Positions 14,628-47,962 of a stretch of DNA of 64,000 bases are shown here, one piece after another (the stretch's first letter is position 1; every line of letters starts with the position of its first letter). The position numbers and the translations under genes are program-made. Source of the DNA: Pontibacter sp. G13 (GTDB lineage: Bacteria; Bacteroidota; Bacteroidia; J057); the NCBI RefSeq assembly GCF_031851795.1, contig NZ_CP134696.1, forward strand, positions 7,068,001 to 7,132,000, written 5' to 3'. The notes under the pieces were generated by a model that was not told where the DNA came from, made no database searches, and saw nothing but the letters and a program-made list of their open reading frames with translations.

Positions 14628-16730
14628 TTGAAAACCTCCCATTTTCTCATTGCCAGCTTCATGGCGAGTGTCCTGTTCTGGACCGGCTGCCAATTGAATC
14701 CCGTCAAGGATATCGGCTGGAACGCTGATGTCTTGGCTCCGTTGGCGTATTCTCGCGTGGACATTTTTCAGGCAGTTCAGGATTCGAGCTTGTTGGAAAC
14801 GGGTCCCGACGATCTGCTTCAGATCACGTATCGGGACACCTTGGTGGAGATTAATCTCGCCGAAATCATCGAGCTCCCAGACACGGGAAAGGATTTCTCT
14901 GTGAGACTGGATACCCTGACGCTGGATTCCGACACCGTTGCGCAGCAGTTTACCCTTGGGCAATTGGCTCAACAATTAGCCAATGACGGCAATATATTCG
15001 CAGGGGTCATCATCGCCAATCACGGGGGTACGTTGCCCGCGATTCCCAATTTTCCTGGCCTGAGTTCTGGAGCTGTTCCAGTAGATGCCAGCGAATTTTT
15101 CACGACGGCCACCCTGAGTGAAGGAACCCTGTCACTTACCTTGGACAACCAGTTTCCATTGGATTTGGCCAATGTGACGTTCGAAATTCGAAATCTGGGT
15201 ATGGCAGGTCCTCCATTGGTAAGCGATGTATTTGATACGCTGAGAGCAGGAACATCCGAAACTCGTGCGTACGATCTGGCTGGAAAGACCCTGCTGGGAG
15301 ATTTGGAAGGAGAATTGGTGAATATGGATCTGGTGGGTGGTAACAATGTCCCCGTCGATACTACTGATTATGTGGAGATTCGATTGGCGGCGCTAGATAT
15401 GAAGGCACAGACTGCCACCGCGGTATTCCCCGGTCAGGTCATCTTGGATACCTTGCAAGAGACGAGATACTCATTTGGGGAGGAGTTTTCTGATGTCCGT
15501 CTGACGAAACTCAAGGTTCGGACCGGAACGATTCGTGCCATTGCCACCAGTACCGTGGAGGATACTTTGCTGTTTAGATACGGACTTCCCTCGGCTGTCA
15601 ACGATCAGGGAGAAACCCCCAGTGTGGAATTGAAGCTCGATCCTGCTCCATCTGGTGGTGTCATCAATCAGACCCGGACTGCGACCTTGGAGGGATTTAC
15701 GCTGGATATGACCGGCACCGAGATTGGCTACAATACCCTTTTGGAAGAAGTATTCATTGAGCTTCCGTATTCGGGCAATTTGATCACGCTGGAAGAGACC
15801 GATAGTGTCGTAGTCACCTTCGAATTGGTGGATATCGAACCGATCTATGTGGAGGGATATTTGGGACAGCAACAGTTGGCCTATTCTGGTTCTGAAGCTG
15901 TGGATTTCTTCGATGATCTCGATTTGGATCGACTGTACCTGTCGGATGCAAATGCCGCATTGACGTTTGAGAATAGCATGGGATTGGACGCGAGTTTGGT
16001 GATCCGAGACTTGTCTGCGAGCAATAGCGAAACGGGGGAATCCATCAAGCTTTCAGGCTCGCCTTTGGTAGCCGGACCGATTCACATTCCGGGTATTTCT
16101 GCACCTGACACCTTTAACGCTGCCTATACCACCTTGGAACTCAATTCCCAAAACTCCAATATCGTCCGTGTCATCAATGTGTTGGCAGATGAGATCTCGT
16201 ACGAATTGGAGGCCGAAACCAATATCTCCAACCCCAATGGCGAATACATCAATTTCGCCACAGAAGATAGCCGATTGGCGGCCTACCTCGATCTGGAAAT
16301 TCCGGTGAAAGGCTTGGTGGAAGGGTTCAAACTGGCCGATACCGTATTGGTGGATTTCGGATCAGATATCGACCTCACCCGGATAGACGGAGGAATGCTT
16401 CGATTGATCGTGGACAATGGATTCCCATTCGAAGTGGAATTGCAGGCCTCCCTGTACACTGAGGATTTTACGGAATTGGTCCCCATTTCCCAAGATGGAC
16501 TTGTCGAAGCTGCTACGGTGGAAAATAGCGGCCGAGTCGAAAGCCCTGTACAGAGCGTGATCGAGCAGACCTATTCGTCCGAAGACTTGACTCTTGCAAT
16601 CGATCAAGCCAAATATTTGGTATTCGAAGCGAAGATGCGCACACGGCCGTCAGAAGAAGAAGTGGCCATATTTGCGGATTATGAGTTGCTCGTAAAACTT
16701 GTGGGCCAATTCTCTTACCAAGTTCGATAA
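14628..16730 (+). CDS. Large outer-membrane lipoprotein, Bacteroidota family of unknown function
   Basis: 700 residues. N-terminus MKTSHFLIASFMASVLFWTGC is a lipoprotein signal with Cys21. The start is a TTG; it is preferred to the ATG at 14661 because it supplies the positively charged n-region. After the Cys comes NPVKDIGWNADVLAPLAYS, an opening I know from uncharacterised Bacteroidota lipoproteins found beside DUF5723 genes. The rest is many repeated all-beta modules with Asp/Thr-rich turns and no Cys. It lies 54 bp after the beta-helix gene and 149 bp before the DUF5723 gene, all on one strand without a clear terminator, so an outer-membrane module is likely. Function unknown. Confidence 0.75.
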   Translation: MKTSHFLIASFMASVLFWTGCQLNPVKDIGWNADVLAPLAYSRVDIFQAVQDSSLLETGPDDLLQITYRDTLVEINLAEIIELPDTGKDFSVRLDTLTLDSDTVAQQFTLGQLAQQLANDGNIFAGVIIANHGGTLPAIPNFPGLSSGAVPVDASEFFTTATLSEGTLSLTLDNQFPLDLANVTFEIRNLGMAGPPLVSDVFDTLRAGTSETRAYDLAGKTLLGDLEGELVNMDLVGGNNVPVDTTDYVEIRLAALDMKAQTATAVFPGQVILDTLQETRYSFGEEFSDVRLTKLKVRTGTIRAIATSTVEDTLLFRYGLPSAVNDQGETPSVELKLDPAPSGGVINQTRTATLEGFTLDMTGTEIGYNTLLEEVFIELPYSGNLITLEETDSVVVTFELVDIEPIYVEGYLGQQQLAYSGSEAVDFFDDLDLDRLYLSDANAALTFENSMGLDASLVIRDLSASNSETGESIKLSGSPLVAGPIHIPGISAPDTFNAAYTTLELNSQNSNIVRVINVLADEISYELEAETNISNPNGEYINFATEDSRLAAYLDLEIPVKGLVEGFKLADTVLVDFGSDIDLTRIDGGMLRLIVDNGFPFEVELQASLYTEDFTELVPISQDGLVEAATVENSGRVESPVQSVIEQTYSSEDLTLAIDQAKYLVFEAKMRTRPSEEEVAIFADYELLVKLVGQFSYQVR

Positions 16731-19043: not shown

Positions 19044-19074
19044 TTGACTACCCTCCATTGGTGGTGTATATTTG
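19044..19074 (+). promoter_or_regulatory. Promoter of the PhnD-like / TonB receptor operon
   Basis: TTG, 20 nt, TATATTTG, matching the -33 and -7 elements of Bacteroidota. Predicted start near 19081, about 70 nt before the ATG at 19150. Confidence 0.6.
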
Positions 19075-19149
19075 TCCCTATCTAGGTTTCCGTATTGCTC
19101 CAATACCGAAGCTGCTTACCATTCCCCTAGTTATTCGGAATTCTGCTGC

Positions 19150-21009
19150 ATGTTGAAATTGTTTCGCCTAAGCCTGCTGTTTGGATGCCTACTGCTTTGT
19201 TTGCCTGCTTTGGGCAACGCCTCAGATACCCTTCATGTAGGATTGATCCGCTATAAATCCCCCACCGATTTTCGCTCCACTTTTTTCCCGTTGTTCGAGC
19301 AACTCGGAGACGCCCTCAATCGTCCCGTGAACATTCAGGTTTTCGAGTCCGATTCCGCTGATTTGGGCTATGCGCTCCATTCAGGGGAAATGGATCTGGG
19401 GCTTTTTACCCAATTTCCCTATCTAAAGGCTAGTGAACTTTTTCCCTCCTTGACGGTATTTGCGACCCATAAGGTCGGAGGAGCGGCTTCTTTCGAAGGA
19501 GCCATTGTCGTCAGGAAATCCGGTTGGACAGAAGAGGTGGATCAATTGGCAGATCTACGCGGCAAGTCATTTGCCTTTGTGAAACCTACCTCTACATCTG
19601 GGTACAAACTACCTAATGGCATCTTACAGGAACTTGGACTGAATCAGGCTGAAGGATTCTTCTCCCAAATCTCCTTTTCCGGATCACACTCTGCTTCACT
19701 GGAAGGTCTTCTCGATGGCACCTATGATGGAGTGGCGGTCGATATGCGATCTTTTAAATCCCTGCCGAAAGCCAATCAGGAGAAACTGGTGATCCTTAGG
19801 ACCTATTCTGTGCCCAACCATGCTTATGTATTTGGGCCCAACGTCCCGCAATCTGAGCGAAATCAGATTCTGGAGGCCATGACCCATCTACACCTTCAGT
19901 CAGGAGCGAAGGCTGCATTTGACAATCCACTGGGAATTTCCAGATGGGTATCTCAAGAAGACGAAGCCTACAATTCGCTGAGACGCTACCTGAACATGGT
20001 TCGGAGCCGTGCCAAGTTGTCTTTGCAATTCCACCTTAGATCCAGTGCCCAAAAATCCCTGGAGGCAAAGGGGGACTTGATTGAGGAAATGCATGATCAA
20101 GTGGATGAGGCGATCGAGCATACAGGTAGATTTGAGGTCGTGGAAAAAGGGGGATTTGCCCACCAGCTGGAACTGTTTATCTCCAGCATTGACGAATCCG
20201 AATATTCCGTACAGATTAAATGGAATGGTAGTCAATTCGAGACTTACACGCTCACCGCTCGGCAACTGATTTCCGACCTTCCGAGCTTGGTCAAGGTAGC
20301 CCTGCTCGAAAATCTTCCCATTAAGGCTCCATTGCTCAAGGCTGGCGATCGCTGGCAGATTACCTATGGATCTGCGGATGGCTTGAATTTGAAGGACTTT
20401 GCCTTTTCCTATGTGCGAAATGGCCGTGAGATATCTATTCCTAAGACCGATGTGCTGAATTTGACCGAGTCAAACACGATCTTCCAGTCCGTAGCGGATT
20501 TCGAGGAAGATATGGTCATTTTCATCCGAGGAGTTCATGCTGATCCTTTTCAACAGCCTACATCCGAGGAAGAATTGATCTTGGAAGAAGGGTTTTGGGA
20601 TAATCCCGACCATGTGTGGGGGGTGATTGGTCTGATTGTGGCGATCCTGTCGGTGGGATTTGGTGCCTGGTTCACCCGAAGAAAGCAGAAGCGTTTCCGG
20701 AATCTACTGTACTCTTGCAATGATTTGCTCAAAGACATGCTAGAGGAACAGCACAATCTGGAGCTTCGATTGGAGGATTTGAAGCATGTGATCTCCAGAA
20801 GTTTGGAGAAAGGCCATATCAGCGAAAACCAATTCCTGATTCTTCAAAGAAGACTCAATGACATTGAGGGATTGCTGCAAGGCTGGAGAAATCTGCAAGA
20901 AGTGCTCAATCCAGAGCTCGAAGCACAGATCAGAAATATGCTCAAGGTGGAGACCATCACCGAGCGAGAGTTCAACCAATTGGACACATTATTGAAGCGC
21001 AAATCCTGA
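19150..21009 (+). CDS. PhnD-like periplasmic binding domain fused to one membrane helix and a cytoplasmic coiled coil
   Basis: 619 residues. Signal peptide at 1-24. Residues about 27-300 match the PhnD/phosphonate-type solute-binding fold (LHVGLIRYKSPTDFRSTFFPLFEQLGDAL, then GKSFAFVKPTSTSGYKLP and YDGVAVDMRS). Residues about 310-480 are an extra beta-rich domain. A single membrane helix follows at about 489-508, with an RRKQKR stop-transfer signal, and the tail (about 515-619) is a coiled coil with no kinase, cyclase or HAMP motif. So a ligand bound outside could change a cytoplasmic coil. The gene ends 31 bp before a TonB receptor gene. Ligand, partner and role unknown. Confidence 0.8.
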   Translation: MLKLFRLSLLFGCLLLCLPALGNASDTLHVGLIRYKSPTDFRSTFFPLFEQLGDALNRPVNIQVFESDSADLGYALHSGEMDLGLFTQFPYLKASELFPSLTVFATHKVGGAASFEGAIVVRKSGWTEEVDQLADLRGKSFAFVKPTSTSGYKLPNGILQELGLNQAEGFFSQISFSGSHSASLEGLLDGTYDGVAVDMRSFKSLPKANQEKLVILRTYSVPNHAYVFGPNVPQSERNQILEAMTHLHLQSGAKAAFDNPLGISRWVSQEDEAYNSLRRYLNMVRSRAKLSLQFHLRSSAQKSLEAKGDLIEEMHDQVDEAIEHTGRFEVVEKGGFAHQLELFISSIDESEYSVQIKWNGSQFETYTLTARQLISDLPSLVKVALLENLPIKAPLLKAGDRWQITYGSADGLNLKDFAFSYVRNGREISIPKTDVLNLTESNTIFQSVADFEEDMVIFIRGVHADPFQQPTSEEELILEEGFWDNPDHVWGVIGLIVAILSVGFGAWFTRRKQKRFRNLLYSCNDLLKDMLEEQHNLELRLEDLKHVISRSLEKGHISENQFLILQRRLNDIEGLLQGWRNLQEVLNPELEAQIRNMLKVETITEREFNQLDTLLKRKS

Positions 21010-21040
21010 ATAGCCAGGTAGATACGAAACTAAGTGACAC

Positions 21041-23332
21041 ATGATGAGATATTTTTGGGGAGCTGCCCTATGGATGATATGGGGCATCAGTTCCCTGATG
21101 GGCCAAGTGATCTTGACTGGCCAAGTCTTGGATGCCTCCACAGGATTGCCCATTGAAGGCGCCATTGTAGGGGAGTGGGAAGGGACTGCCAGCGTCTATT
21201 CCATGCAAGATGGAAGTTTTTCTCTGGCTGTCAGCGAACTTCCCTTGGAAATGGGGGTAAGGCTTTCCGGGTATGAAACTTGGTCAGGGAAGGTTGAGGA
21301 TGAAAATCAAGATCTGACCATCAGATTGGTTCATTCCGGATTCGAGATGGATCAAGTCATCATGACCGGTTGGACTGATGGTAAGCGTGCGATAGATCAG
21401 GTGGGTTCCGTTAGTTTGTTGGGCGCAACGGCCCTGAATCGCGATTTGCCCATTTCCCCGGCCAATGTCCTGAATCGAGTTCCCGGCGTCATCATGCAGG
21501 TGGGAGCGTTGAACACCAATCGTCTCACCATTCGCGGTGCTGGGGCAAGAACCCAATATGGGACCAACAAGATTCGGGCGTATTTCAATGAGATTCCCAT
21601 CTCTACAGGGGATGGGGAAACTACCGTAGAGGATGTCGATCTCAGTCAGATCGGTCGGATTACGGTATTGAAAGGACCGGCTTCCAGCCTGTACGGCGCT
21701 GGCCTGGGAGGGACCCTGATCATGCAGACTCGGGAATCCGCTACCAATACCCGTAGGCTATCCCAAAGCTTTACAGGTGGCTCATTTGGTCTTAAGAGAT
21801 GGACCACAAATTGGCAATCCAACCAAGACAAAACGAGGCTACTTGTCAATTTCAACCGGACCGGGCAAACTGGATTTCGGGAGAATAGTGAATATCAGCG
21901 CACGGGGTTGACCACTGCTGTGGAGGTAGATGCGGGTGCCTCCGGTACCTTGACGATTTTAGCGTCATATATCGATCTGTTGGCAGAGATTCCGAGTTCC
22001 TTGGATTCAACAGATTTTATGGATTCTCCCTCCTCCGCCGCTTTCACTTGGAACAAGACCCAAGGCTATGAAGATTACACCAAAGCCATGATGGGCGTCG
22101 GATATCGCCATCACTGGAATGACCAATGGCAATCCCAGACCTCCCTGTTCATCTCGGGTAAGCAAGGTGAAGAAGTTGCTCCATTTGCTATCAGAAAGGA
22201 CGGATTCCAAACACTTGGTGGTCGGTTCAAACTGAGCTGGCAGGACACTGTGGGATATGGACAAATGGTCTTGGCAGTCGGGGGAGAAGGTTTTGCCGAG
22301 CAGTACGATTGGCGGACTTACCAGAATGTGGATCGGGTAGGTGTGCAAGGAGAATTGACTTCCGATAACCTTGAGCAGAGATCCTATGTCAATGCCTTTT
22401 GGCAAATGGACTGGAATTTTGCCCCTAAGCTGAGTCTTGCGGCTGGCTTGAATGCGAATGTGACCCAATTCGATTATCAGGATTTCTATACCCCAGATAG
22501 TTTGGATCAATCTGCGCAACGGACCTTCCCAGTGGTTTGGTCTCCCCGGATCGGCCTATTGGCCAAACCGATAGACGGGTTGAATATTCATGCAAGTCTG
22601 AGCCACGGCTTCTCGCCTCCTTCGCTTGAGGAGACCCTGTTGCCCGATGGGGCACGTAACCCGGATCTCTTGCCCGAGACTGGCTGGAATCTGGAACTAG
22701 GGGCTCGCGGCAGAATTCTGGATGGACTGTTGAGCTATGAGCTATCGGTCTATCGTCTTTGGTTGGATAATCTGATAGTGGCTGAGCGACTGACTGAAGA
22801 TACCTATATCGGCCGAAATGCAGGTTCCACGGTTCACACAGGGGTAGAGGCCTATGCTGATTATGTGGTGTGGCAGTCCGAGGCGATTCGCTTTTCTATT
22901 TGGGGAAGTTACACCTGGGCTCATTACCTATTCGATGATTATGCCGATGCCTCCAAAGAAGCAACCTACGATGGAAATCGCCTTCCGGGACTTCCTGCTC
23001 ATCATATCAATGCCGGGTTTGATTTTGCAGCCACTTGGGGATTGTATGCCGCCGGAACGTTCCAGCATGTAGGAGAAATGCCGCTAGACGATGCCAATCT
23101 GAAATGGGTAAATGCCTATCAGGTGATGAACGGCAAGCTCGGATTTCGTCGGACCTTTTGGAATCATCTGGAGTTGGATGTCTATGGAGGCGTGCAGAAT
23201 ATCATGGATACCCATTACGCGGCGATGGTCTTGGTCAATGCAATCGGATTTGGCGGAGCTGATCCACGCTATTTCTATCCGGGTGCTCCGCGAAATGCGT
23301 ATGCTGGAGCTCAGGTGAGCTGGAAGCTATAG
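21041..23332 (+). CDS. TonB-dependent outer-membrane receptor, FecA-like
   Basis: 763 residues. Signal peptide at 1-21, then a carboxypeptidase-regulatory-like domain (about 22-95, GQVLDASTGLPIEGAIV). The plug (about 115-230) includes NVLNRVPGVIMQVGALNTNRLTIRG and GRITVLKGPASSLYGAG, and the 22-strand barrel follows to the C-terminal QVSWKL. Such receptors import siderophores or other large ligands using TonB energy. It is 31 bp after the PhnD-like gene and shares its promoter, so the two are expected to handle the same substrate. A citrate- or siderophore-like ligand is suggested by overall resemblance only. Confidence 0.92.
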   Translation: MMRYFWGAALWMIWGISSLMGQVILTGQVLDASTGLPIEGAIVGEWEGTASVYSMQDGSFSLAVSELPLEMGVRLSGYETWSGKVEDENQDLTIRLVHSGFEMDQVIMTGWTDGKRAIDQVGSVSLLGATALNRDLPISPANVLNRVPGVIMQVGALNTNRLTIRGAGARTQYGTNKIRAYFNEIPISTGDGETTVEDVDLSQIGRITVLKGPASSLYGAGLGGTLIMQTRESATNTRRLSQSFTGGSFGLKRWTTNWQSNQDKTRLLVNFNRTGQTGFRENSEYQRTGLTTAVEVDAGASGTLTILASYIDLLAEIPSSLDSTDFMDSPSSAAFTWNKTQGYEDYTKAMMGVGYRHHWNDQWQSQTSLFISGKQGEEVAPFAIRKDGFQTLGGRFKLSWQDTVGYGQMVLAVGGEGFAEQYDWRTYQNVDRVGVQGELTSDNLEQRSYVNAFWQMDWNFAPKLSLAAGLNANVTQFDYQDFYTPDSLDQSAQRTFPVVWSPRIGLLAKPIDGLNIHASLSHGFSPPSLEETLLPDGARNPDLLPETGWNLELGARGRILDGLLSYELSVYRLWLDNLIVAERLTEDTYIGRNAGSTVHTGVEAYADYVVWQSEAIRFSIWGSYTWAHYLFDDYADASKEATYDGNRLPGLPAHHINAGFDFAATWGLYAAGTFQHVGEMPLDDANLKWVNAYQVMNGKLGFRRTFWNHLELDVYGGVQNIMDTHYAAMVLVNAIGFGGADPRYFYPGAPRNAYAGAQVSWKL

Positions 23333-23364
23333 GCAGTCGTGTGGCAACGAACACAGATATTTCT

Positions 23365-23400
23365 GCCGGAGATAAAGCTATTTATCTCCGGCATTTTTTT
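23365..23400 (+). terminator. Terminator of the TonB receptor operon
   Basis: Perfect 12-bp stem GCCGGAGATAAA/TTTATCTCCGGC, loop GCTA, then an A and a run of T residues. The stop codon of the opposite-strand TVP38 gene lies in the loop. Confidence 0.9.
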
Positions 23401-24227: not shown

Positions 24228-26330
24228 TTAGACTAGCTGCTTTTCAGCAGGTTCCATGATAGGATTCTTGGGCAGCGTGAAATACACCGTTGTTCCTTCT
24301 CCCAGTGTGGAGTTGATCCAGATTCGGCCTTTGTGTTGTTCCACGATTTTTTTGCAGATGGATAGGCCGATTCCCGTTCCCTTGTACTTGGACTTGCGAT
24401 TGTGGAGCCGGAGGAACAATCCGAAGATCTTCTCTTCATAGGCTTTGTCCATGCCTATTCCATTGTCCTTGACCGAGAATAGATATTCTTCTCCCTGCTG
24501 ATGCGCATTGATCTGAATGACCGGGGGATCATCACTTCGGAACTTGATGGCATTATCGATCAGGTGATCAAACAGCTGGGTAACTTGAGTAGAGTTCGCA
24601 GTCAAAGTCGGAAGCTCGCTCATTTGGATACGGGCGCCATGCATGCTCTTTTCTCGCGTTCTGATCTGAATGATCTTGGTCACAACTTGTTTGGTGTCTA
24701 CGTCTGCGAAGGAATGTTGGAAGATTCCCACCACGGAATAAGCCAGCAAATCCGCCAGAAGGGCATCCATGCGTTCGACTCCCTTGGTGATGAAATCAAT
24801 GAACTCATCGGCATCATCATCCAGCTTTCCATAGTAGCGTCGCTTCAGTAAGGTCGCGAATGAACCGATGCTTCGGAGAGGCTCCCGGAGATCGTGCGAG
24901 GTTACATGGGCAAACTGTCGAAGATCGTCATTGGAGCTTGTCAGTCGCTCATTCTGCAATTGGATTTCCTCATTCTTTTGAGCCAACAGGACGTTGACTT
25001 CTCTGAGGGTCTTGTTGCGGTTGTAGACCAAGTACAACAAAGCCATCAAAAAGATACACCCTGTACCGAAGCCGTAAATGTAGATCTTCTTGCGGTAGGT
25101 GAGGTTTTCTTCCTGCAGGGTGGTGATTTGTGCCTGAGTTCTCTGATCGTGTTGCTCTTGCTCAACCCGATGGAGCATAGCCATCTTCTTCTGGTCGATC
25201 AGGGAGTCCTTGATTTGAACATACCGCTTGTAGTGGTTGAATGCCAAATCCACTTCACCAAGTTGTTCGTAGGCCTCAGATTTGACTTTGTAAAGGTCTC
25301 TGATGAGGTGTGGAATATTGAGTGCGGCAGCATCTCCTTCAATATCTTCGACCAACTTGAATGCGCCGGAAGAATGTCCCATTTGGATGTAGGCCTCTGC
25401 GAGTTGGATACCCGAAGAAACCCATTCGCGCTTGGGACCATTGGCTTGGAATATTTCGTAGGCGTGTTGGAAGTGATCCACTGCTTTGGAAAACTCACCT
25501 TCATCCTTGTAGATTTTACCGATCAACCCTTCTGAGTAAGCTGAGCCATAGACGTAGGAAATACTGTCTGCGAGAATTCTGGACTTATTCACATAAAGCA
25601 GGGCTGAATCCAATTTATTCAGACCAACAAATGCAAATCCGATACAGGCGATACTCGTGTAGAGCTTGATGGCGATCCGCTTGGACTCACGAGGAAGTTC
25701 GTAGGGCTTGTCGTACAGATATTCGTAGTAATCGTTGGAGATTTTGAATCTGCGAAGTGCGGCATCGTATTTTTTCTGGGAGTAGTTGAGTACGCCCATA
25801 ATGCGGTTGCCGGTGGCCAGCGTCAAAGTATCTTGCTGTTCTTTACCGATTTCCAGGGCTTCGTACTGGTATTTGATGGCTCGGTCGTAATCCCCCAATT
25901 CCGTGTAGACTTCGGCGATCTGAGACATCGTCAATGCCCGATCGATGGGTTGATTGAGCTCTTGGGCGAGCGCATCTGCTTGGTGGAGGTACTGGAGAGA
26001 TTGATCGTAGAGATCGAGGGGGAAGAATAGTACTTGTCCCAAATAATGGTAGAACTTGTACTGCATTCCGGGATGGTTCAACTCCTCGGCAAGCTTGGCT
26101 CCTCTGAAATACCACGTGCGAGCTTCTTCATACTCTTGGTCGTCGTAGTAGTATTGGCCTAGGGTAAAGTAGATGTCGAGGATTTCCGGCAATGATCCTT
26201 GGTCATACAGGATGGCCACCTGATCTTTCAGGCTGTCCACATTGATAGGTTGTGCCTGAATCGAGGAAAGCCCCCAAAATAGGATGCCGCAGAAACCCGC
26301 GAGAATCCGGTTAACTTGCTTTAAGGTCAT
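24228..26330 (-). CDS. TPR-containing sensor histidine kinase
   Basis: 700 residues. Signal peptide at 1-26, then about eight tetratricopeptide repeats in the periplasm (about 30-390), one membrane helix (about 415-435, YGFGTGCIFLMALLYLVYN), a short coiled coil, the dimerisation/phosphoacceptor domain with the H-box FAHVTSHDLREPL, and an ATPase domain with NAIKFRSDD, DNGIGMD and GTGIGLS boxes (N, G1 and G2). So periplasmic protein contacts are turned into phosphotransfer. No response regulator gene is adjacent. Closest in layout to the Bacteroidota TPR-HK group. Confidence 0.92.
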   Translation of the reverse strand: MTLKQVNRILAGFCGILFWGLSSIQAQPINVDSLKDQVAILYDQGSLPEILDIYFTLGQYYYDDQEYEEARTWYFRGAKLAEELNHPGMQYKFYHYLGQVLFFPLDLYDQSLQYLHQADALAQELNQPIDRALTMSQIAEVYTELGDYDRAIKYQYEALEIGKEQQDTLTLATGNRIMGVLNYSQKKYDAALRRFKISNDYYEYLYDKPYELPRESKRIAIKLYTSIACIGFAFVGLNKLDSALLYVNKSRILADSISYVYGSAYSEGLIGKIYKDEGEFSKAVDHFQHAYEIFQANGPKREWVSSGIQLAEAYIQMGHSSGAFKLVEDIEGDAAALNIPHLIRDLYKVKSEAYEQLGEVDLAFNHYKRYVQIKDSLIDQKKMAMLHRVEQEQHDQRTQAQITTLQEENLTYRKKIYIYGFGTGCIFLMALLYLVYNRNKTLREVNVLLAQKNEEIQLQNERLTSSNDDLRQFAHVTSHDLREPLRSIGSFATLLKRRYYGKLDDDADEFIDFITKGVERMDALLADLLAYSVVGIFQHSFADVDTKQVVTKIIQIRTREKSMHGARIQMSELPTLTANSTQVTQLFDHLIDNAIKFRSDDPPVIQINAHQQGEEYLFSVKDNGIGMDKAYEEKIFGLFLRLHNRKSKYKGTGIGLSICKKIVEQHKGRIWINSTLGEGTTVYFTLPKNPIMEPAEKQLV

Positions 26331-34024: not shown

Positions 34025-36313
34025 CTACTTATTTTTTTCTGGAACACGAGTAGCTGAATCCTCAGAAGTGGTATCCGGAACCATTGATTCTGAGTCCATT
34101 TTGGGCTCGATCACATTTTCCAAAATACTCCAAGAGCTGGGGGTTCCTACGTCTTTCCCCAAAATCCAGTGATCGTAGAGAAGTTGGATGGTTCCATCTT
34201 TGGTCTTGAATTTGATCCAGTCGTCGATAAACCGGGACCATTCCTCATCAGGGCCTCCCAATGGAAATACCAACGGGATCTCTACCTGAATGGGAAGCGG
34301 ATTTACGACGGCATATTCAGGATGAAGCAGCGTCAATACGGCCCCTCGTTCGGCACTTGACAAAAGCGCATCGATCCGAATGGTATCTGGAAGCAAGGAA
34401 TCCTGCGCAAAGAATTGCTCTACTGAATCCAGCTGATACAGGCCAGCATGTGGGAAAAAGGACTGGATTTTTCGTCCAAACTCCTTTTGCTCCATGTATC
34501 CAACTGTAAAGGTGTCAATGGCCATGGTTCCCTGAAAACTCTTGAATGCGGAACGCCCAGAGTGGGCCACCAGAGCCAGATGCACATCCATGTAGGGATC
34601 GCTCAGTAGGATTTCCTGTGCGTATTTTCCCGAGAGGAACACATCCTGAACGGCGATGTCCACATAGTCTTTGTTGATGTACTCAACCAATTTGTGCTGG
34701 GGAATGGGGACAAACTCTAAGGTGACCTCCAAGGTCCTCGCCAAATCATACGCCATTTCAATCCCTAGCCCCACGAGGCTTCCTTTGGCATTGTGATAGG
34801 TGAATGGGGTTTCTCCTTCTTGATAACCTACCCGCAAAACTCCTCTGGCTTTAGCCCGGCTGAGACGAGATTGACGGCCGCGGAGCCGTTTAGGGTTGCG
34901 TTTGGGGGGATCGATGATTTCATAGGCCACGGTGTCATTCACCATTTCCATGTTGTTCACCAATTCGTCTTTCTTGTAGGCATCGCTGAGTGAATAGTCC
35001 AAATATGCCCGGAGGGGAATCAGAACCAGCAAGAACAATCCGATTCCAGAAGCGATCACAGAAATCAATTTGGGCCAATCCACCTTGAAGATTCCGTGTG
35101 CCCGACTCAGGGTCAGCATGGTGACGACCATGAGGTACATGGCGCCAAGCACTACCCGGATTCGGTCCGTGAAAACAGTAGATACAATGAAGAGGTTGAA
35201 GGCGTCTTTCGGAATATCCAAAAGATCCAGCATGAAAGGAATCCCAGTCACCGGTGCCACGAAGCTACTCAGCAGGGTAGAACCAAGAAGGGTAGGGTAG
35301 TCGGTCCACTCTAGGGCCTGCCCGCTCGTCCAGGCCGCAAATGGTACAAATACGAATATGACGAGCGTGCCCAAATTGGGGAAGGGATAAAATAGCGGCA
35401 TTAGGATATCTACGGCAGAGAGATTTTCCTCGGAATTCTGCTCATACCGCCTCAAGAGTCGTTTCATGTTGCTGATCAGCTCGGGAAGCACCACGATGAT
35501 TTTTCCTGTTGCAAATATGGTCAGCAGGGTACCTTGCGTGTATCGGATGAGATGCTTGGCTTGAAAAGGCGTACAGGAAGCCATGATGCCCGGCACAACC
35601 CAAAACGTGAGAATGAGCGCTGCGATGGCATAAGTCAACAGGTACGCCTGCATTTTGCCCAATTCCTCCCAAGTGATAACACCGGCCGTACTCGCAGCAA
35701 TCGCAAATACCCCGTATGGAGTGAGCTTGATGATCAGCTTGTTGACGTGATTGAGGCCTTCATTGAAGATGTCCAGAAACTCCAATACTCGTTCCTTGCC
35801 GGGAACATTCATCATGCCGATTCCCATGAAAATTCCAAACAGCACGACTGCTGGAACCATGCTATTGGCTAAAGAGGAGAAGGGATTCGCAGGAATATAC
35901 AAGGACAGAAAATCGATCTGGGCAGGAGGATCGATCAAGCTGGCACTGTAGAACGAAGCCGAGTGCCATTCCGGAAATGCCAAAGGAAGCAGGACAATGG
36001 CCGCCAAGCCAATCAGTAATAGCAATCCCATGAACATGAGTCCATTGGTAATTAGCTTTTTACCTTCCTTGAGGGAGAGCCTGCCGATATTGACGATCAG
36101 AGAGATCAGGATATAGGGGAGCACCGTCATTTGCAGCAAGCCTATAAATACATCCCCGACAAACTTGAGGCTCGCCACGCGGTCTCCGAAAAATAGGCCC
36201 ATCAGAATCCCCAAGATGAGTCCGATCAAGATCTTGACCGAAAGCCCACCGGGATTTGTGGCTTGATCTCCTGCCTTCGCCTTCTTTTGGGATTTGGGTG
36301 ATTTTCCTGTCAT
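34025..36313 (-). CDS. Dicarboxylate/amino acid symporter (DAACS) fused to a periplasmic solute-binding domain
   Basis: 762 residues. Residues about 25-420 are a glutamate/dicarboxylate:cation symporter (SLC1/GltP type) with eight helices and two re-entrant hairpins. Key positions are altered: TM7 has YPFPNLGT in place of the sodium-site motif NMDGT, and TM8 reads TDRIRVVLGAM, keeping D-x-x-R but not the Asn. A ninth helix (about 440-460, IASGIGLFLLVLIPLRAYL) would carry the C-terminus to the periplasm. There residues about 490-735 form a bacterial solute-binding domain (RVGYQEGETPFTYHN, GIEMAYDLARTL, DIAVQDVFLSG). Probably a substrate-fed transporter or a sensor. Start ATG at 36313. Confidence 0.88.
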   Translation of the reverse strand: MTGKSPKSQKKAKAGDQATNPGGLSVKILIGLILGILMGLFFGDRVASLKFVGDVFIGLLQMTVLPYILISLIVNIGRLSLKEGKKLITNGLMFMGLLLLIGLAAIVLLPLAFPEWHSASFYSASLIDPPAQIDFLSLYIPANPFSSLANSMVPAVVLFGIFMGIGMMNVPGKERVLEFLDIFNEGLNHVNKLIIKLTPYGVFAIAASTAGVITWEELGKMQAYLLTYAIAALILTFWVVPGIMASCTPFQAKHLIRYTQGTLLTIFATGKIIVVLPELISNMKRLLRRYEQNSEENLSAVDILMPLFYPFPNLGTLVIFVFVPFAAWTSGQALEWTDYPTLLGSTLLSSFVAPVTGIPFMLDLLDIPKDAFNLFIVSTVFTDRIRVVLGAMYLMVVTMLTLSRAHGIFKVDWPKLISVIASGIGLFLLVLIPLRAYLDYSLSDAYKKDELVNNMEMVNDTVAYEIIDPPKRNPKRLRGRQSRLSRAKARGVLRVGYQEGETPFTYHNAKGSLVGLGIEMAYDLARTLEVTLEFVPIPQHKLVEYINKDYVDIAVQDVFLSGKYAQEILLSDPYMDVHLALVAHSGRSAFKSFQGTMAIDTFTVGYMEQKEFGRKIQSFFPHAGLYQLDSVEQFFAQDSLLPDTIRIDALLSSAERGAVLTLLHPEYAVVNPLPIQVEIPLVFPLGGPDEEWSRFIDDWIKFKTKDGTIQLLYDHWILGKDVGTPSSWSILENVIEPKMDSESMVPDTTSEDSATRVPEKNK

Positions 36314-36411
36314 GGTGCCAATGAATGCCCTTCTGGACAAACACACCTTATAACTCGCCCTATCCGAGAGTGTTGTAAGCTCGCACTTTCGGACAAAAAC
36401 AGGAACGTAAG

Positions 36412-43153: not shown

Positions 43154-45442
43154 CTAAAAGCCCAACTGGAGGGACATCAGGATATTTCGACCCATTCCCT
43201 CGACAGAAGCCCCGTGGTAGCGGTAGGTTTCATCCAGAAGGTTTTGGATGCCCACCATGGCATATCCCCACGGAAAATCGTAGCCTACCCGGAGATCCAG
43301 TCGATTCCAGCCTGCGGTACCATTGGGTCCGATGTAGGGATTGGCGATATCATTGGGGGAAAGATTGTCTTGTTCAGCGGTATAGAACCATTCCATTTTT
43401 CCCCAGACCCCTTTTCTGCTTTTGTACTGGAACCCAAGACGGCTATTGAGCGGAGCAATCTCACTCAAGGGCTGGTCCAATGAAATGCTTTTGCCGAGGG
43501 CGTAGGCAATTCCTCCGTAGAAAGCCACGGTGCGGTTGACTGGAATTTCAATCTCTGCCTCCACCCCTTGGATATAAGCTTGCCCGACATTCTGTTCCTG
43601 ATACACCGGAACCCCCTCATATTGTCCTTCTCCCTCCCAAGAGCCCGGAGTCCAATCGATATAGTCTGTGTATTGAGTTCGGTAGACGGAAAATGATCCA
43701 GAGAAATGACTGGTTTTGGCCTTGAACCCGATCTGCGAGGTAAACGAGCGCTCGCCTGCCAGACTGTCGGATGGGATTGCCCAACCCAATTGGTTTCTTC
43801 CGAAACTCCCCAGATCGTACAGATTAGGTGCTCGGTATCCCGTGGTAAATGAGGAGAACAATTGATAATTGGGGTGAAGCGGATACATGGCCGAAATATT
43901 CCCCGTCAGGGCCAGCGGTTTCACTTCGGTATTGGAGCTAGCGAGATTGTCGAGGTTGTTGGAGGTAGCGGTTGCCCGCCCGCCGAAAGTCAATCTCAGC
44001 TTGAGTACATCGAATGTCTGAATGGTATAAACGGACAGGTTACGGCCGATACTGCCATCTGGGAGCATTCCTCGAGTGGGCATGGGATCTTCGTTGCCGT
44101 CCTCAAATAGCTGTGCTTGAGTATTGGCTTGGTCGTAGTACCACTCCACACCAGAGACCAGATTCCAATAGAGATTGGGTTGGGACTTGACTTCGAATTT
44201 GGCGCCAAGGGTCTGGATATCGGTTTCCTCTTTGCGATTCAACTCGGAAAGCCCTTCGGCCTGGTCCAACTCGAAATCATGGGATTGCCAGCTAGCCTTG
44301 ACCGAAAGCTGCTTGAACCATTTGTTGTCGAAATGGCCATTCCAGCCCACGTATGAGATCTGTTGTGTACGGTCCAATTGCCCTTCTTGGGCCGCCATGC
44401 CGTTTTTGGGTTGATCTGTCAATCCCACATTGGACTGGTCCTGTGCAATGTAGGCAGCGATAATTTCATGATCTTGATTGACCTTTGCTTTGGCCAGTAA
44501 TCGGTATGATTGCTGTTGGTAATCAGAGTTGGGCAGTCTTCCTCGATCTCCCGCCAGCGGAAGGTTCCCGAAATCTTGAAGGCCATATCCTGCCAAGATG
44601 CCCACCTGCTCATTGCCGAGACTTATTTCCCCATTGCCTCCGTACAAAGCATCTCCGGTCCAGAGTTGGCCTTGTAGGCGACCATGCACTTCCCAGCCAT
44701 CATCTGCATACACCGGTTGGCGAGCGGTCATGGACACGACTCCGCCAAATGCCTCCGCGCCATGTGCCACACTTCCGGTACCTAGGAGTACCTCTGCTCT
44801 GTCAATCATAAATGGATCGATCATCCCAAGCGGGTTTCCTCCTGAGATGGGGAGGAATGCAGCACCTAGCCGAATATCATTTAGGCGGTACACATTTCTA
44901 TTTCCGGTCACCCCACGAAGCTGTAGGGATCCGTCTGCCAAAAATTGGGGCTGGTTCCAAACTCCTGAAAATTGGGACAGGGCTTCGGAAGTCTGCCTTG
45001 GTTGATCTTGAATCAGGTTGTATGCATCAATCCGATAAGCGGTGGAAGGGGAATACATGGGATCGCGATCGTATCGCTGTGGGAGATCAATGGGTTGCTG
45101 CTCCAATTGTCTCACAGAAATGAGCATGGCAACTCCGGTGGATACCAATGAATCGGTGCCAATGACAATTTCCTGAGTAGTGGATTTGAAGCCCGGACGG
45201 CTAAACTGAAGGGTGTAGACACCCGGCTCAATGCCTTTGAGGGTAAAATACCCATTCTGGTCTGCCCAGCCATCGAGTGTAGTGCCCAGCAGTTCCACCT
45301 TGGCGCCCTTGAGGGGTTTGCCGGTTCCACGGTTGTAAATCGAACCTTGTAGGGTGGTTTGTTGTGCTAATCCTATCATGGGCAGCCCCATCAACAGGAT
45401 AATCAAGAGGGCCTGCACGTGAAAAAGGAAACGGTCTTTCAT
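43154..45442 (-). CDS. TonB-dependent outer-membrane receptor
   Basis: 762 residues. Signal peptide at 1-27 (LIILLMGLPMIGLAQ), then a carboxypeptidase-regulatory-like domain (about 30-115, GSIYNRGTGKPLKGAKVEL). Plug about 140-255 with SEALSQFSGVWNQPQFLADGSLQLRGVTGN and DRAEVLLGTGSVAHGAEAFGG. The barrel follows, with a C-terminal aromatic. ATG at 45442 (MKDRFLF) fits. No SusD-like gene lies next to it, so it belongs to the siderophore/cobalamin-like group rather than the SusC group; ligand unknown. No riboswitch was seen in the upstream 540 bp. Confidence 0.92.
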   Translation of the reverse strand: MKDRFLFHVQALLIILLMGLPMIGLAQQTTLQGSIYNRGTGKPLKGAKVELLGTTLDGWADQNGYFTLKGIEPGVYTLQFSRPGFKSTTQEIVIGTDSLVSTGVAMLISVRQLEQQPIDLPQRYDRDPMYSPSTAYRIDAYNLIQDQPRQTSEALSQFSGVWNQPQFLADGSLQLRGVTGNRNVYRLNDIRLGAAFLPISGGNPLGMIDPFMIDRAEVLLGTGSVAHGAEAFGGVVSMTARQPVYADDGWEVHGRLQGQLWTGDALYGGNGEISLGNEQVGILAGYGLQDFGNLPLAGDRGRLPNSDYQQQSYRLLAKAKVNQDHEIIAAYIAQDQSNVGLTDQPKNGMAAQEGQLDRTQQISYVGWNGHFDNKWFKQLSVKASWQSHDFELDQAEGLSELNRKEETDIQTLGAKFEVKSQPNLYWNLVSGVEWYYDQANTQAQLFEDGNEDPMPTRGMLPDGSIGRNLSVYTIQTFDVLKLRLTFGGRATATSNNLDNLASSNTEVKPLALTGNISAMYPLHPNYQLFSSFTTGYRAPNLYDLGSFGRNQLGWAIPSDSLAGERSFTSQIGFKAKTSHFSGSFSVYRTQYTDYIDWTPGSWEGEGQYEGVPVYQEQNVGQAYIQGVEAEIEIPVNRTVAFYGGIAYALGKSISLDQPLSEIAPLNSRLGFQYKSRKGVWGKMEWFYTAEQDNLSPNDIANPYIGPNGTAGWNRLDLRVGYDFPWGYAMVGIQNLLDETYRYHGASVEGMGRNILMSLQLGF

Positions 45443-46000
45443 ACAGCGAGATTTCGGAATCATGAAGCGGAAGTCCCATCGGGAGCCACTTTCAGCCTAG
45501 GGCAATGTTACGATCTTTGGGGGGGATCCCCGAATCATTTTTGATAATTTTCATAGATCGAAAACATAGCGATTCTAGGCAATTGTCGGACGCTGAAAAT
45601 CACTTTTGGAAAAATTCCCAAAAAAGTTTCTTCGTCGCTTCTTCCAATTCGTTAGGATATCCACACCGATCTCGGGAGAAAGGCATGGGTTGGGAAACCA
45701 CTCAAATTAGCCGAGAACGGGGCGAATCTTCCCAGCCAACCGATGAGTCTGGACAAACTGGGGTTGAAATCCGAATATTGTCCGCTCGGGAAGGGTTGCG
45801 TGCGCTGTATCGGTAAAATTCATACTTTGAAATATATTCACATTCAATCAAATCGGCCCTCACGGGATTGTATATGCATCCTCGCGGATGATTGTTGGTT
45901 GTTTGGTTTCGCAGATGAAAATCTGCCTAGGGGAGTTCGGAACTCTGTCAGATGTCGTCATGCGCGATGTGTTGCAGGTTTCCGACCCTTTTTGGTTTCA
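45443..46000. other. 558-bp gap upstream of the TonB receptor gene
   Basis: No gene, riboswitch or clear promoter seen. One imperfect palindrome (TTTTGGAAAAATTCCCAAAA) lies near 45600-45630. Confidence 0.5.
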
Positions 46001-47860
46001 TTACCTCACGATGAGGTTGGATTGAATCGAATGACCCTGTAGCACGAGATGAACCAGATAGACTCCTGTGGCCACGTGCTCAGAGAGTGGAATACGGACT
46101 GCCCCGGATGAGGAAAAGGCATTTCCCATGTCTACTGTCCTTCCCGCCAAATCCCGGATCGTCCATTCGCAGGCTACATCCGCTTCCCACGGTCCCCGCA
46201 TGAATACAGCCTCTCCCTTGGAAACCGGATTGGGGAACAGCTGAATGGATGTCCTGCCCATAGAATGGATTTCCACCGTATTCGACAGAAAGATCCTGCC
46301 TTCGAAGTCCAGCAATTTTACTCGATAAATGGAAGCGGGTAGGGGACTGGGATCAAATGCCCGATGGGATGCTAAATGAGCCGCCTCCAATGAGAGTGCC
46401 TGAAATTCCCGAAGCGAAGGATGCCATCGTTGAATGTCGATTCGATTCCAGTCAGACAATCCATGAACTTCCCAGTTGAGCTCGATACCGCTGCCCAACG
46501 CTTGGCCAACCAGGTCGATCTGGATGTGGTCGAGGACGCATGATTCTCCGGTGGTTTCGGTGGGGATGGTATATCCGGTCAATGAAACACCGTTCGTGCC
46601 TGAAATGGCTCCTTGTGGATCATTTGCGCATGCTGCTGCCACGCCTCGAATTCCTCCTGAAAGTTGGGTCGTGGTGGCTCCTGGCACCGCATTCGAAGTC
46701 CAGACCACGCCGCCAGATCCGCCTCCACCGGGGCCTTCGCAGTTGATGTTGGTACTCCCTCCATCGCCTCCATTGACCGAAAGTGTGAGATTGGTCGCGG
46801 GGTCGATATTGTCCACTTGAAGGGCAATGACCCCTCCAGCACCACCGCCTGAATTTCCGTCGGATTGATTGCCCATAGGCACGACATCAGCCCCATTTGC
46901 TCGAATGTCAAACCCATTTCCGATGAGCTGGAACGCTTCGATCATGATGATTCCCCCTCCATTGCCGCCATTGCTGGCTTGTCCATTGTCTTCATGGCCA
47001 GCACCGCCTCCGCCACCCATGAAGAGATAGGGATTGGCTGGTGAATATCCCCAGCTTGCGAGCGTCTTGCCGGGTACGCCCGGGAAATTGCCACTGCAAA
47101 AGGCGCTTCCGTCCTTGTCTCCGCCTCTACCTCCAGCTGAATAGTTGCTACCGCCCGCTCCTCCGCTATTGTGACGATTGCCTCCTCCGCCGCCATTGGC
47201 TTGGGGACCGCGGGCATAATTGGTACTGGTTGGAATGGCGATGCCTTCGCCTTTCTGACCGCCGTTGGTTGAGTTGGTCAATGCATAGGAATTGGTGGTG
47301 AAAAAGCAATTGGATGTCCCATTGTCCGGAATCCCTCCTCGAAATCCTTGGCCTGAGACGTCGATGTCTGCGCCAAGTTCCAAGGTATTGTTGACGGAAA
47401 AGGCCAAGATCCCTCCTGTTGCGCCATCCCACGGCTGGGCAGTCAAGGTACCATCAACATACGCATTGGCATAGGTGGGGACTCGGATCAATTGGCTGGA
47501 GGAAGTGGGGGAATAGGTGTTTTGGAGCGGGTATTCGAAGCTGATTTCCCCATTGGTGGTGTTGACGTTGCAAACGGAAGCCCATTCGTAGGTACCGGCG
47601 CCATTGAGGCTTGTGATGGTTCCGTAGGCACTGCCCGTGGTGGAAATGGTGGCTCCTTGCATCTGGATGAGTAGCACCTGATCTGCAAGGTCGAAATCAG
47701 AGGCATCTGAAACCGTGATCGAGTTGGAGAGTGGGTCTGTGGCCGTGATGGCCGTGTAGGAATTGATAATCCCTGAAATTGTGTCTGGTTGCGCTTGGGC
47801 CTTCCCAAGAGGTAACAGGCCCAGCAGGAGAATTCCGGCGAGTAGCAATTGAATCTGCAT
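46001..47860 (-). CDS. Glycine-rich surface protein with T9SS sorting domain
   Basis: 619 residues. Signal peptide at 1-24. After a small N-terminal domain (TGSAYGTITSLNGAGTYEWASVC) the middle (about 185-385) is very Gly-rich, with GGGGGNRHNSGGAGGSNYSAGGRGGDK and similar runs, and resembles the domain of glycine-rich Bacteroidota surface proteins. The C-terminal part (about 430-619) has a fibronectin-like stretch and a T9SS type A sorting domain (IQLFPNPVSKGEAV, VATGVYLVHLVL). It should be surface-attached. ATG at 47860 fits. Role possibly adhesive. Confidence 0.85.
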   Translation of the reverse strand: MQIQLLLAGILLLGLLPLGKAQAQPDTISGIINSYTAITATDPLSNSITVSDASDFDLADQVLLIQMQGATISTTGSAYGTITSLNGAGTYEWASVCNVNTTNGEISFEYPLQNTYSPTSSSQLIRVPTYANAYVDGTLTAQPWDGATGGILAFSVNNTLELGADIDVSGQGFRGGIPDNGTSNCFFTTNSYALTNSTNGGQKGEGIAIPTSTNYARGPQANGGGGGNRHNSGGAGGSNYSAGGRGGDKDGSAFCSGNFPGVPGKTLASWGYSPANPYLFMGGGGGAGHEDNGQASNGGNGGGIIMIEAFQLIGNGFDIRANGADVVPMGNQSDGNSGGGAGGVIALQVDNIDPATNLTLSVNGGDGGSTNINCEGPGGGGSGGVVWTSNAVPGATTTQLSGGIRGVAAACANDPQGAISGTNGVSLTGYTIPTETTGESCVLDHIQIDLVGQALGSGIELNWEVHGLSDWNRIDIQRWHPSLREFQALSLEAAHLASHRAFDPSPLPASIYRVKLLDFEGRIFLSNTVEIHSMGRTSIQLFPNPVSKGEAVFMRGPWEADVACEWTIRDLAGRTVDMGNAFSSSGAVRIPLSEHVATGVYLVHLVLQGHSIQSNLIVR

Positions 47861-47962
47861 GGGCAAAATGGATTGTGAACAAGAATATACACCAAAAACC
47901 CACGCATTCAAGGGGATTACATGGCCCTAGACTGACAATCGAATTCGGAAATCCTGAATTCC

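Follow-up and report, generated by a model that had tools for sequence, protein, structure and literature searches.

Solute-binding domains of the PhnD type are known in transport proteins, in sensor kinases and in soluble co-sensors. TtrS and ThsS have a periplasmic PhnD-like sensing domain in a protein that carries kinase domains and signals to the cytoplasm, and 838 PhnD-like sensor kinases have been counted in UniProtKB, 154 after close relatives were removed (PMC5408782, in part). AioX, ArxX and ArrX sense instead of transporting; their chains have about 300 amino acids, and in XSR systems they are partnered by a kinase and a regulator (PMC5908839, in part). We have analysed a 64,000-nucleotide stretch of a 7.67 Mb genome assembled in three contigs (positions 7068001-7132000 of contig C1 of genome G000; the window hereafter), in which the gene of a PhnD-type membrane-spanning protein is followed by that of a TonB-dependent receptor. 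Judged by its gene content, the genome belongs to a member of the Bacteroidota. Our preferred reading, tentative and given somewhat less than even confidence, is that the PhnD-type protein is an inner-membrane receptor of type I, which binds a small, oxyanion-like ligand and signals through its tail to a separately encoded partner. Such a kinase-less, membrane-spanning form would be a fourth use of the domain.

The PhnD-type domain was matched by PF12974 with an E-value of 1.2e-42 and 146.4 bits (cut-off 27), over profile positions 2-242 of 242. The window protein shares this Pfam domain with PhnD, PtxB and HtxB, all three of which were found among its PDB matches, and differs from them in spanning the membrane and ending in a cytoplasmic tail. 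Comparisons were made with overlapping samples of 100 relatives (the window's own genome included) and of 13 family, 22 order, 395 class and 395 phylum genomes; one relative, G004, proved to encode the protein at full length. With a profile of these two sequences, the best PDB match was ArrX (3.8e-17), with PtxB and others next. The AioX pocket consists of Y88, C106, Y131, S161, S163, H192 and D210 (PMC5908839, in part). Using ArrX as a bridge, four of these seven residues were identical in the window and G004 proteins (S148, S150, H180 and D198 in the window protein), the AioX-to-ArrX correspondence being deduced from the numbering offset. A small tetrahedral or oxyanion-type solute is therefore a plausible ligand of the periplasmic domain. 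A role as the binding protein of a phosphonate ATP-binding cassette (ABC) transporter is unlikely, because the own genome contains a single PF12974 match at E-values up to 0.001 and PhnE (TIGR01097) exceeded its cut-off in none of the 13 family genomes.

The twelve most hydrophobic 19-residue windows of the protein fell in two stretches only, the signal peptide and residues 487-510. Acidic residues precede the membrane helix in the second stretch and the sequence RRKQKR follows it, hence the tail should face the cytoplasm. Throughout its 110 residues the tail keeps a single heptad register, in which 61% of the a and d positions are L, I, V, M or F, a value reached by two of 2000 shuffles; the whole-length heptad score of the G004 tail was reached by none of 2000. 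This heptad pattern suggests that the coil may dimerise, perhaps in a ligand-dependent manner. HisKA and HATPase domains, as carried by the TtrS-type kinases, were found neither in the window protein (E-values up to 0.1) nor in the G004 protein (E-values up to 10).

The end of the tail resembles the SHOCT_2 family (PF20612, cut-off 24): the last 40 residues scored 24.1 bits, the whole tail 23.9 and the whole protein 19.7, and the end of the G004 tail scored 14.9 bits. Oligomerisation and nucleic-acid binding by SHOCT domains were put forward as hypotheses, and first experiments did not support oligomerisation (PMC3581485, in part). No reading was built on this SHOCT-like end because its score is borderline. 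A second SHOCT-like repeat was suspected in the tail around ISENQF, and that piece gave no SHOCT match.

Between the PhnD-type domain and the membrane lies a domain to which no relative could be assigned. The rear half of the window protein had no Pfam match at E-values up to 10, and that of the G004 protein had two sub-threshold ones (E-values 0.04 and 0.1). A low-confidence model of the middle domain shows a helix, four strands and a helix, followed by further strands; Foldseek returned nothing for this model at E-values up to 0.001, the best match being at 0.047. PDB profile matches of the rear half, such as haemagglutinin HA2, were weak and of the coiled-coil type (best E-value 0.089), and were discarded. 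A CsgG- or TolB-like reading of the helix-strands-helix pattern found no support in any analysis and was also abandoned.

These results bear on a sequence-only reading of the same DNA, which had described a PhnD-like solute-binding domain, an unfamiliar middle domain, one membrane helix and a coiled coil in front of a TonB receptor; all five elements were recovered. Its further statement that the protein has no output domain holds in so far as no known output family clearly claims the tail, and is weakened by the borderline SHOCT_2 score.

The preferred receptor mechanism would start with binding of a small tetrahedral or oxyanion-like ligand by the periplasmic domain, which would close its two lobes. 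The lobe movement would pass through the middle domain and the membrane helix to a dimeric cytoplasmic coil, and the coil would hold or release a separately encoded cytoplasmic partner. To what can be read directly in the two genomes at full length, namely a signal peptide, a two-lobed PhnD domain, a middle domain, one span with its positive side in and a heptad tail, we add the ligand class, the dimer, the signalling and the partner by inference.

Several observations weigh against this mechanism. No partner was identified, and no kinase gene adjoins either intact copy, in the window or in G004; the nearest histidine kinase in the scanned region (24228-26330, minus strand; TPR repeats, HisKA and HATPase) lies beyond the gene of a VTT protein. 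In the binding pocket, AioX C106, the arsenite-binding cysteine, aligns with T87 of the window protein, for which AioX-style arsenite binding through a cysteine is unlikely; the pocket tyrosines are not clearly kept either, as Y88 lies where the alignment is gapped and Y131 aligns with S114/F115 (a tyrosine in G004). The best 28-residue heptad window is unexceptional, being reached by 422 of 2000 shuffles for the window protein and by 170 of 2000 for the G004 protein. Both single-sequence structure predictions were poor, with mean pLDDT values of 39.8 and 51.2, the latter for the middle-domain model. Conservation rests on one comparison, only two intact sequences having been found. Finally, three sub-threshold matches to the PhnE profile are present in the own genome (best 50.7 bits, cut-off 216.7), so that other ABC permeases exist; weak permease matches of this kind were present in nine of the 13 family genomes, the own one included.

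The main rival, unlikely in our estimate, sees a binding protein anchored in the membrane, which passes its ligand on to a secondary transporter of the inner membrane whose gene lies elsewhere, much as in TAXI-GltS; the tail would serve only to dimerise or to dock on that transporter. Membrane-attached TAXI binding proteins are reportedly treated in work by Roden et al. from 2023. The lack of any PhnE over the cut-off is in keeping with such a route, and the window itself contains, at 34025-36346 on the minus strand, a sodium:dicarboxylate (SDF) symporter (PF00375) fused to a family-3 solute-binding domain (SBP_bac_3, PF00497) in one frame of 773 amino acids. Binding proteins that are membrane-attached, dimerise outside an ABC context and work with secondary transporters are a described theme (PMC12344293, in part). 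However, among the genes read no symporter or other inner-membrane transporter gene directly adjoins either intact copy, the TAXI model (TIGR02122) gave 16.2 bits on the window protein, far below its cut-off of 84.35, and a cytoplasmic coil of 110 residues would be unnecessary for anchoring.

The protein is rare: it is intact in two of the 13 family genomes, a third has a remnant, and no full-length copy was found in the other sampled genomes. A search with the full protein matched seven of the 100 relatives at E-values up to 0.001; of these, G004 was the only one apart from the own genome to match at full length (residues 14-616 of 619, 36% identity). WGVIGL, ENQFLIL and ITE.EF, in the membrane helix and tail, are among the stretches invariant between the two. 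The rear half alone was found in two of the 13 family genomes, the own one included. The whole-protein profile matched four of the 22 order genomes: G000 and G004 at full length, G001 with a short piece and G010 with the PhnD domain only. At E-values up to 1e-15 it matched three of the 395 class genomes, namely G000, G004 and, with a PhnD-only protein, G078. The G001 piece is a frame of 122 amino acids (L014:3393-3761) in which the protein's start runs straight into a later part of it and which scores 25.8 bits with PF12974, just below the cut-off; it is apparently a decayed remnant that has lost most of the domain.

The rear-half profile matched four of the 395 phylum genomes at E-values up to 0.01, one of them being the own genome; G004 was absent from these matches, and the sample probably does not contain it. 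The three others (E-values 1.2e-4 to 0.009) were an AAA-type protein with sub-threshold matches only (L018), an RNase Y-like protein (L019) and a sensor kinase (L020), and were taken as chance coiled-coil matches. Scans of genome contigs with the protein and with a two-row alignment gave no confirmed relative, and are weak negatives since neither returned the G004 gene; a scan of viral contigs gave none either. The plasmid search yielded 112 records, none covering 80% of the query, and the 20 matches listed all lay in the PhnD-domain part.

PF12974 itself is common, with matches in 162 of the 395 phylum genomes at E-values up to 0.001, 119 of them over the cut-off. Among the matches listed in this census, seven frames exceeded 450 amino acids, the window's own and six others, and none of the six has the window protein's architecture. 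Those of G312 and G471 carry HisKA, HATPase and receiver domains, that of G212 PAS and HATPase domains, and that of G413 PAS domains up to the contig end; the G360 frame has a family-3 binding domain and a lytic transglycosylase domain, its PhnD match being secondary, and the G409 frame matches PhnD only partially. Among the open-licence PMC papers listed by literature searches, none described the architecture in its title or abstract.

We turn to the neighbouring genes (Table 1). Both genes lie on the same strand, the receptor gene starting 31 bases past the PhnD stop, and the pair is flanked by a divergent acyltransferase gene upstream and a convergent VTT protein gene downstream (assigned by Pfam), the final bases of which the hairpin overlaps. 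The ATG at 19150 was taken as the start of the PhnD gene, and a longer TTG start is possible at 19072; position 19044, where the interval of the sequence-only reading began, is the first hexamer of the promoter-like site and not a gene start. This site also reads TTG...TATATTTG, which we take to resemble the -33/-7 consensus of Bacteroidota; the pattern TTG..TAnnTTTG occurs nine times in the window, both strands counted. In the scanned region three sigma-70-type sites were observed (6.3 in shuffles), which makes the promoter weak by count, and eight terminator-like sites (5.7 in shuffles, standard deviation 2.6). Because neither kind of site was commoner than in shuffles, a single transcription unit of the two genes is considered likely and not established.

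Table 1. Positions of the features discussed, numbered from the first letter of the window
Feature	Position	Strand	Basis
Promoter-like site	19044..19074	+	Consensus match only: TTGACT-17-TATATT, before the PhnD gene
PhnD-type membrane-spanning protein, 619 amino acids	19150..21009 (stop included)	+	Open reading frame, Pfam, topology, full-length relative in G004
Signal peptide, residues 1 to ~25	19150..19224	+	Hydrophobicity, peaking at residues 4-22
PhnD-type solute-binding domain PF12974, residues 31-274; pocket-type residues S148, S150, H180, D198	19240..19971	+	Pfam, profile alignment
Middle periplasmic domain, residues ~296-480	20035..20589	+	No Pfam, PDB-sequence or fold match
Membrane helix, residues ~489-509	20614..20676	+	Hydrophobicity
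Predicted cytoplasmic tail, residues 510-619, heptad-patterned, with borderline SHOCT-like end (residues 592-618)	20677..21006	+	Heptad test, Pfam
TonB-dependent receptor, 763 amino acids; CarbopepD_reg_2, Plug and barrel, no STN found	21041..23332	+	Pfam
Terminator-like hairpin, 13 pairs, then TTTTTTT	23364..23393	+	Likely end of the unit

The receptor carries the domains PF13715 (CarbopepD_reg_2), PF07715 (Plug) and PF00593 (barrel). Its best NCBIfam score was with PqqU (191.5, far below the cut-off of 1200); the SusC signature TIGR04057 gave 13 bits against a cut-off of 46.2, and the adjacent genes are not SusD. A search of the 22 order genomes at E-values up to 1e-20 matched 11 of them. 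Orthologs with 39-43% identity over most of the length were found in G009, G007, G002, G006 and G010, and fragments at contig ends in G003 (43%) and G005 (41%). G004, G001 and G019 had matches of 25-28% identity only, the best one in G004 being 28% identical and 2.7 Mb from its PhnD gene.

Counting the own genome and the two fragments, a receptor ortholog is present in eight of the 13 family genomes and an intact PhnD protein in two, and both occur together in one. No PhnD gene was seen at the seven other receptor loci, the upstream stretch of which ends at the contig end in G009 and G003; genome-wide, these seven had no full PhnD protein, and G010 had a PhnD-only gene. In four of the seven assemblies the contigs number at least 390 and completeness is 87-93%, so that a copy may have been missed there; completeness is 99-100% in G002, G006 and G010. 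In G004 an M14 carboxypeptidase gene follows the PhnD gene after 21 bases, and a gene for an Lrp/AsnC-type regulator lies upstream of it.

Because M14 follows in G004, and because only the own genome among the eight has both genes, the TonB pairing is, in the sequences compared, not a conserved feature of the PhnD protein. The sequence-only reading had named homologs without the TonB neighbour as a refutation of its proposal, and the one other intact homolog found, that of G004, lacks this neighbour. Of its broader view of the protein as a sensor connected with uptake, the receptor-like architecture stood, kept at full length in a relative of 36% identity, and the link to outer-membrane uptake found no support; none of the analyses connected the coil with ExbB/ExbD or TonB. 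This result removes the tempting story of the TonB receptor as a fixed companion. The preferred receptor would probably be made together with the TonB importer in the window, perhaps for the same or a related solute, and the pairing would be local and not essential to its working.

An explanation that we rate below the hand-over to a secondary transporter is that the two genes are neighbours without a shared function, co-transcribed by positional accident and devoted to unrelated tasks; it is compatible with the receptor reading of the protein itself. It accords with the occurrence of both genes in one of the 13 family genomes, that is, in one of the two with an intact PhnD protein and one of the eight with a TonB ortholog. 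The spacing, the shared strand and the presence of one promoter-like and one terminator-like site argue against an accident, and so do third neighbours that the two genes have in common: an M14 gene in G004 and G003, and a strictosidine-synthase-like (SSL) gene in G001, G002 and G010, the latter two belonging to one genus.

In G004 the M14 protein encoded behind PhnD shares 61% identity with a protein of G003, the gene of which starts 10 bases past the receptor fragment. The SSL gene (PF03088, PF20067) directly follows the PhnD remnant in G001, 15 bases on. In G010 it adjoins the receptor gene and in G002 a single gene separates the two, which, within one genus, counts as one event at most. 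In the window's genome the M14 and SSL relatives are located at other sites, and in G006 the M14 ortholog adjoins neither gene, which counts against a fixed trio. A hand estimate made after the fact assumed about 5500 genes, with one to two family members in each genome, and set about eight neighbours on one side against about 22 on the other; it predicts 0.05 neighbour families in common, and two were seen. A comparison of 139 kb around the G004 gene with the window returned PhnD, three weak matches (22-28% identity) and one shared block of an ABC protein, RbfA and an FtsX-like protein, which in G004 lies about 5 kb away from PhnD and in the window 33 kb away; the block fits an inherited position, and was recorded and not relied on.

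A common ancestral neighbourhood of the PhnD and TonB genes is thus plausible from gene order, and does not show a function. A more elaborate proposal, to which we give less credence than to the accidental pair, would see here a receptor class new to one lineage, in which a kinase-less PhnD protein signals through a SHOCT-ended coil and descends from an ancestral periplasmic nutrient locus that also comprised a TonB importer and an M14 carboxypeptidase. The SSL gene may have belonged to that locus too, and the receptor would sense a released or imported product and set a cytoplasmic partner.

It is more doubtful still that the protein is a periplasmic co-sensor of the XSR type, which when ligand-bound would contact an unlinked histidine kinase at its periplasmic part, the coil serving for dimerisation only. 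ArrX is indeed its closest solved relative, and the PhnD-only protein of G078 (L011:4604-5518) is encoded immediately ahead of the genes for a histidine kinase and a sigma-54-type response regulator, an XSR-like set. Those G078 genes are adjacent, whereas no kinase-regulator pair adjoins the PhnD gene of the window or of G004; the G078 protein has 305 amino acids and ArrX chains about 300, whereas the window protein spans the membrane. The XSR-like locus around the G078 protein extends over L011 1742-12477; a molybdopterin oxidoreductase is encoded farther along.

Signalling through a TonB receptor is known from FecA-FecR-FecI. The window resembles that system in having a TonB receptor beside a single-span membrane protein, and differs in its opposite layout, with an N-terminal binding domain outside and a tail inside, in a receptor without STN, and in the adjacent genes, which encode the acyltransferase and VTT proteins instead of a FecR or a sigma factor. 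That the PhnD-type protein ties outer-membrane uptake directly to the ExbB/ExbD/TonB machine or to a cytoplasmic partner devoted to the receptor, as first proposed and as adjacency, shared strand and an apparently single unit might suggest, is very improbable: the only other intact homolog found lacks the pairing, the coil is expected in the cytoplasm whereas the receptor-binding part of TonB is periplasmic, and Pfam detected no STN domain in the receptor.

Further loci were observed. Two frames of the window, at 14628-16730 (plus strand, 700 amino acids) and 46001-47911 (minus strand, 636 amino acids), had no Pfam match at E-values up to 0.1 and 0.001 respectively. A second TonB receptor of the window, at 43154-45463 on the minus strand, has a carboxypeptidase-regulatory-like N-terminal domain. 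In G004 (L087:14187-15000), three near-alike tandem frames of about 96-103 amino acids, compared over their first 60 residues and spaced by about 250 bases, are probably a tandem repeat and not genes.

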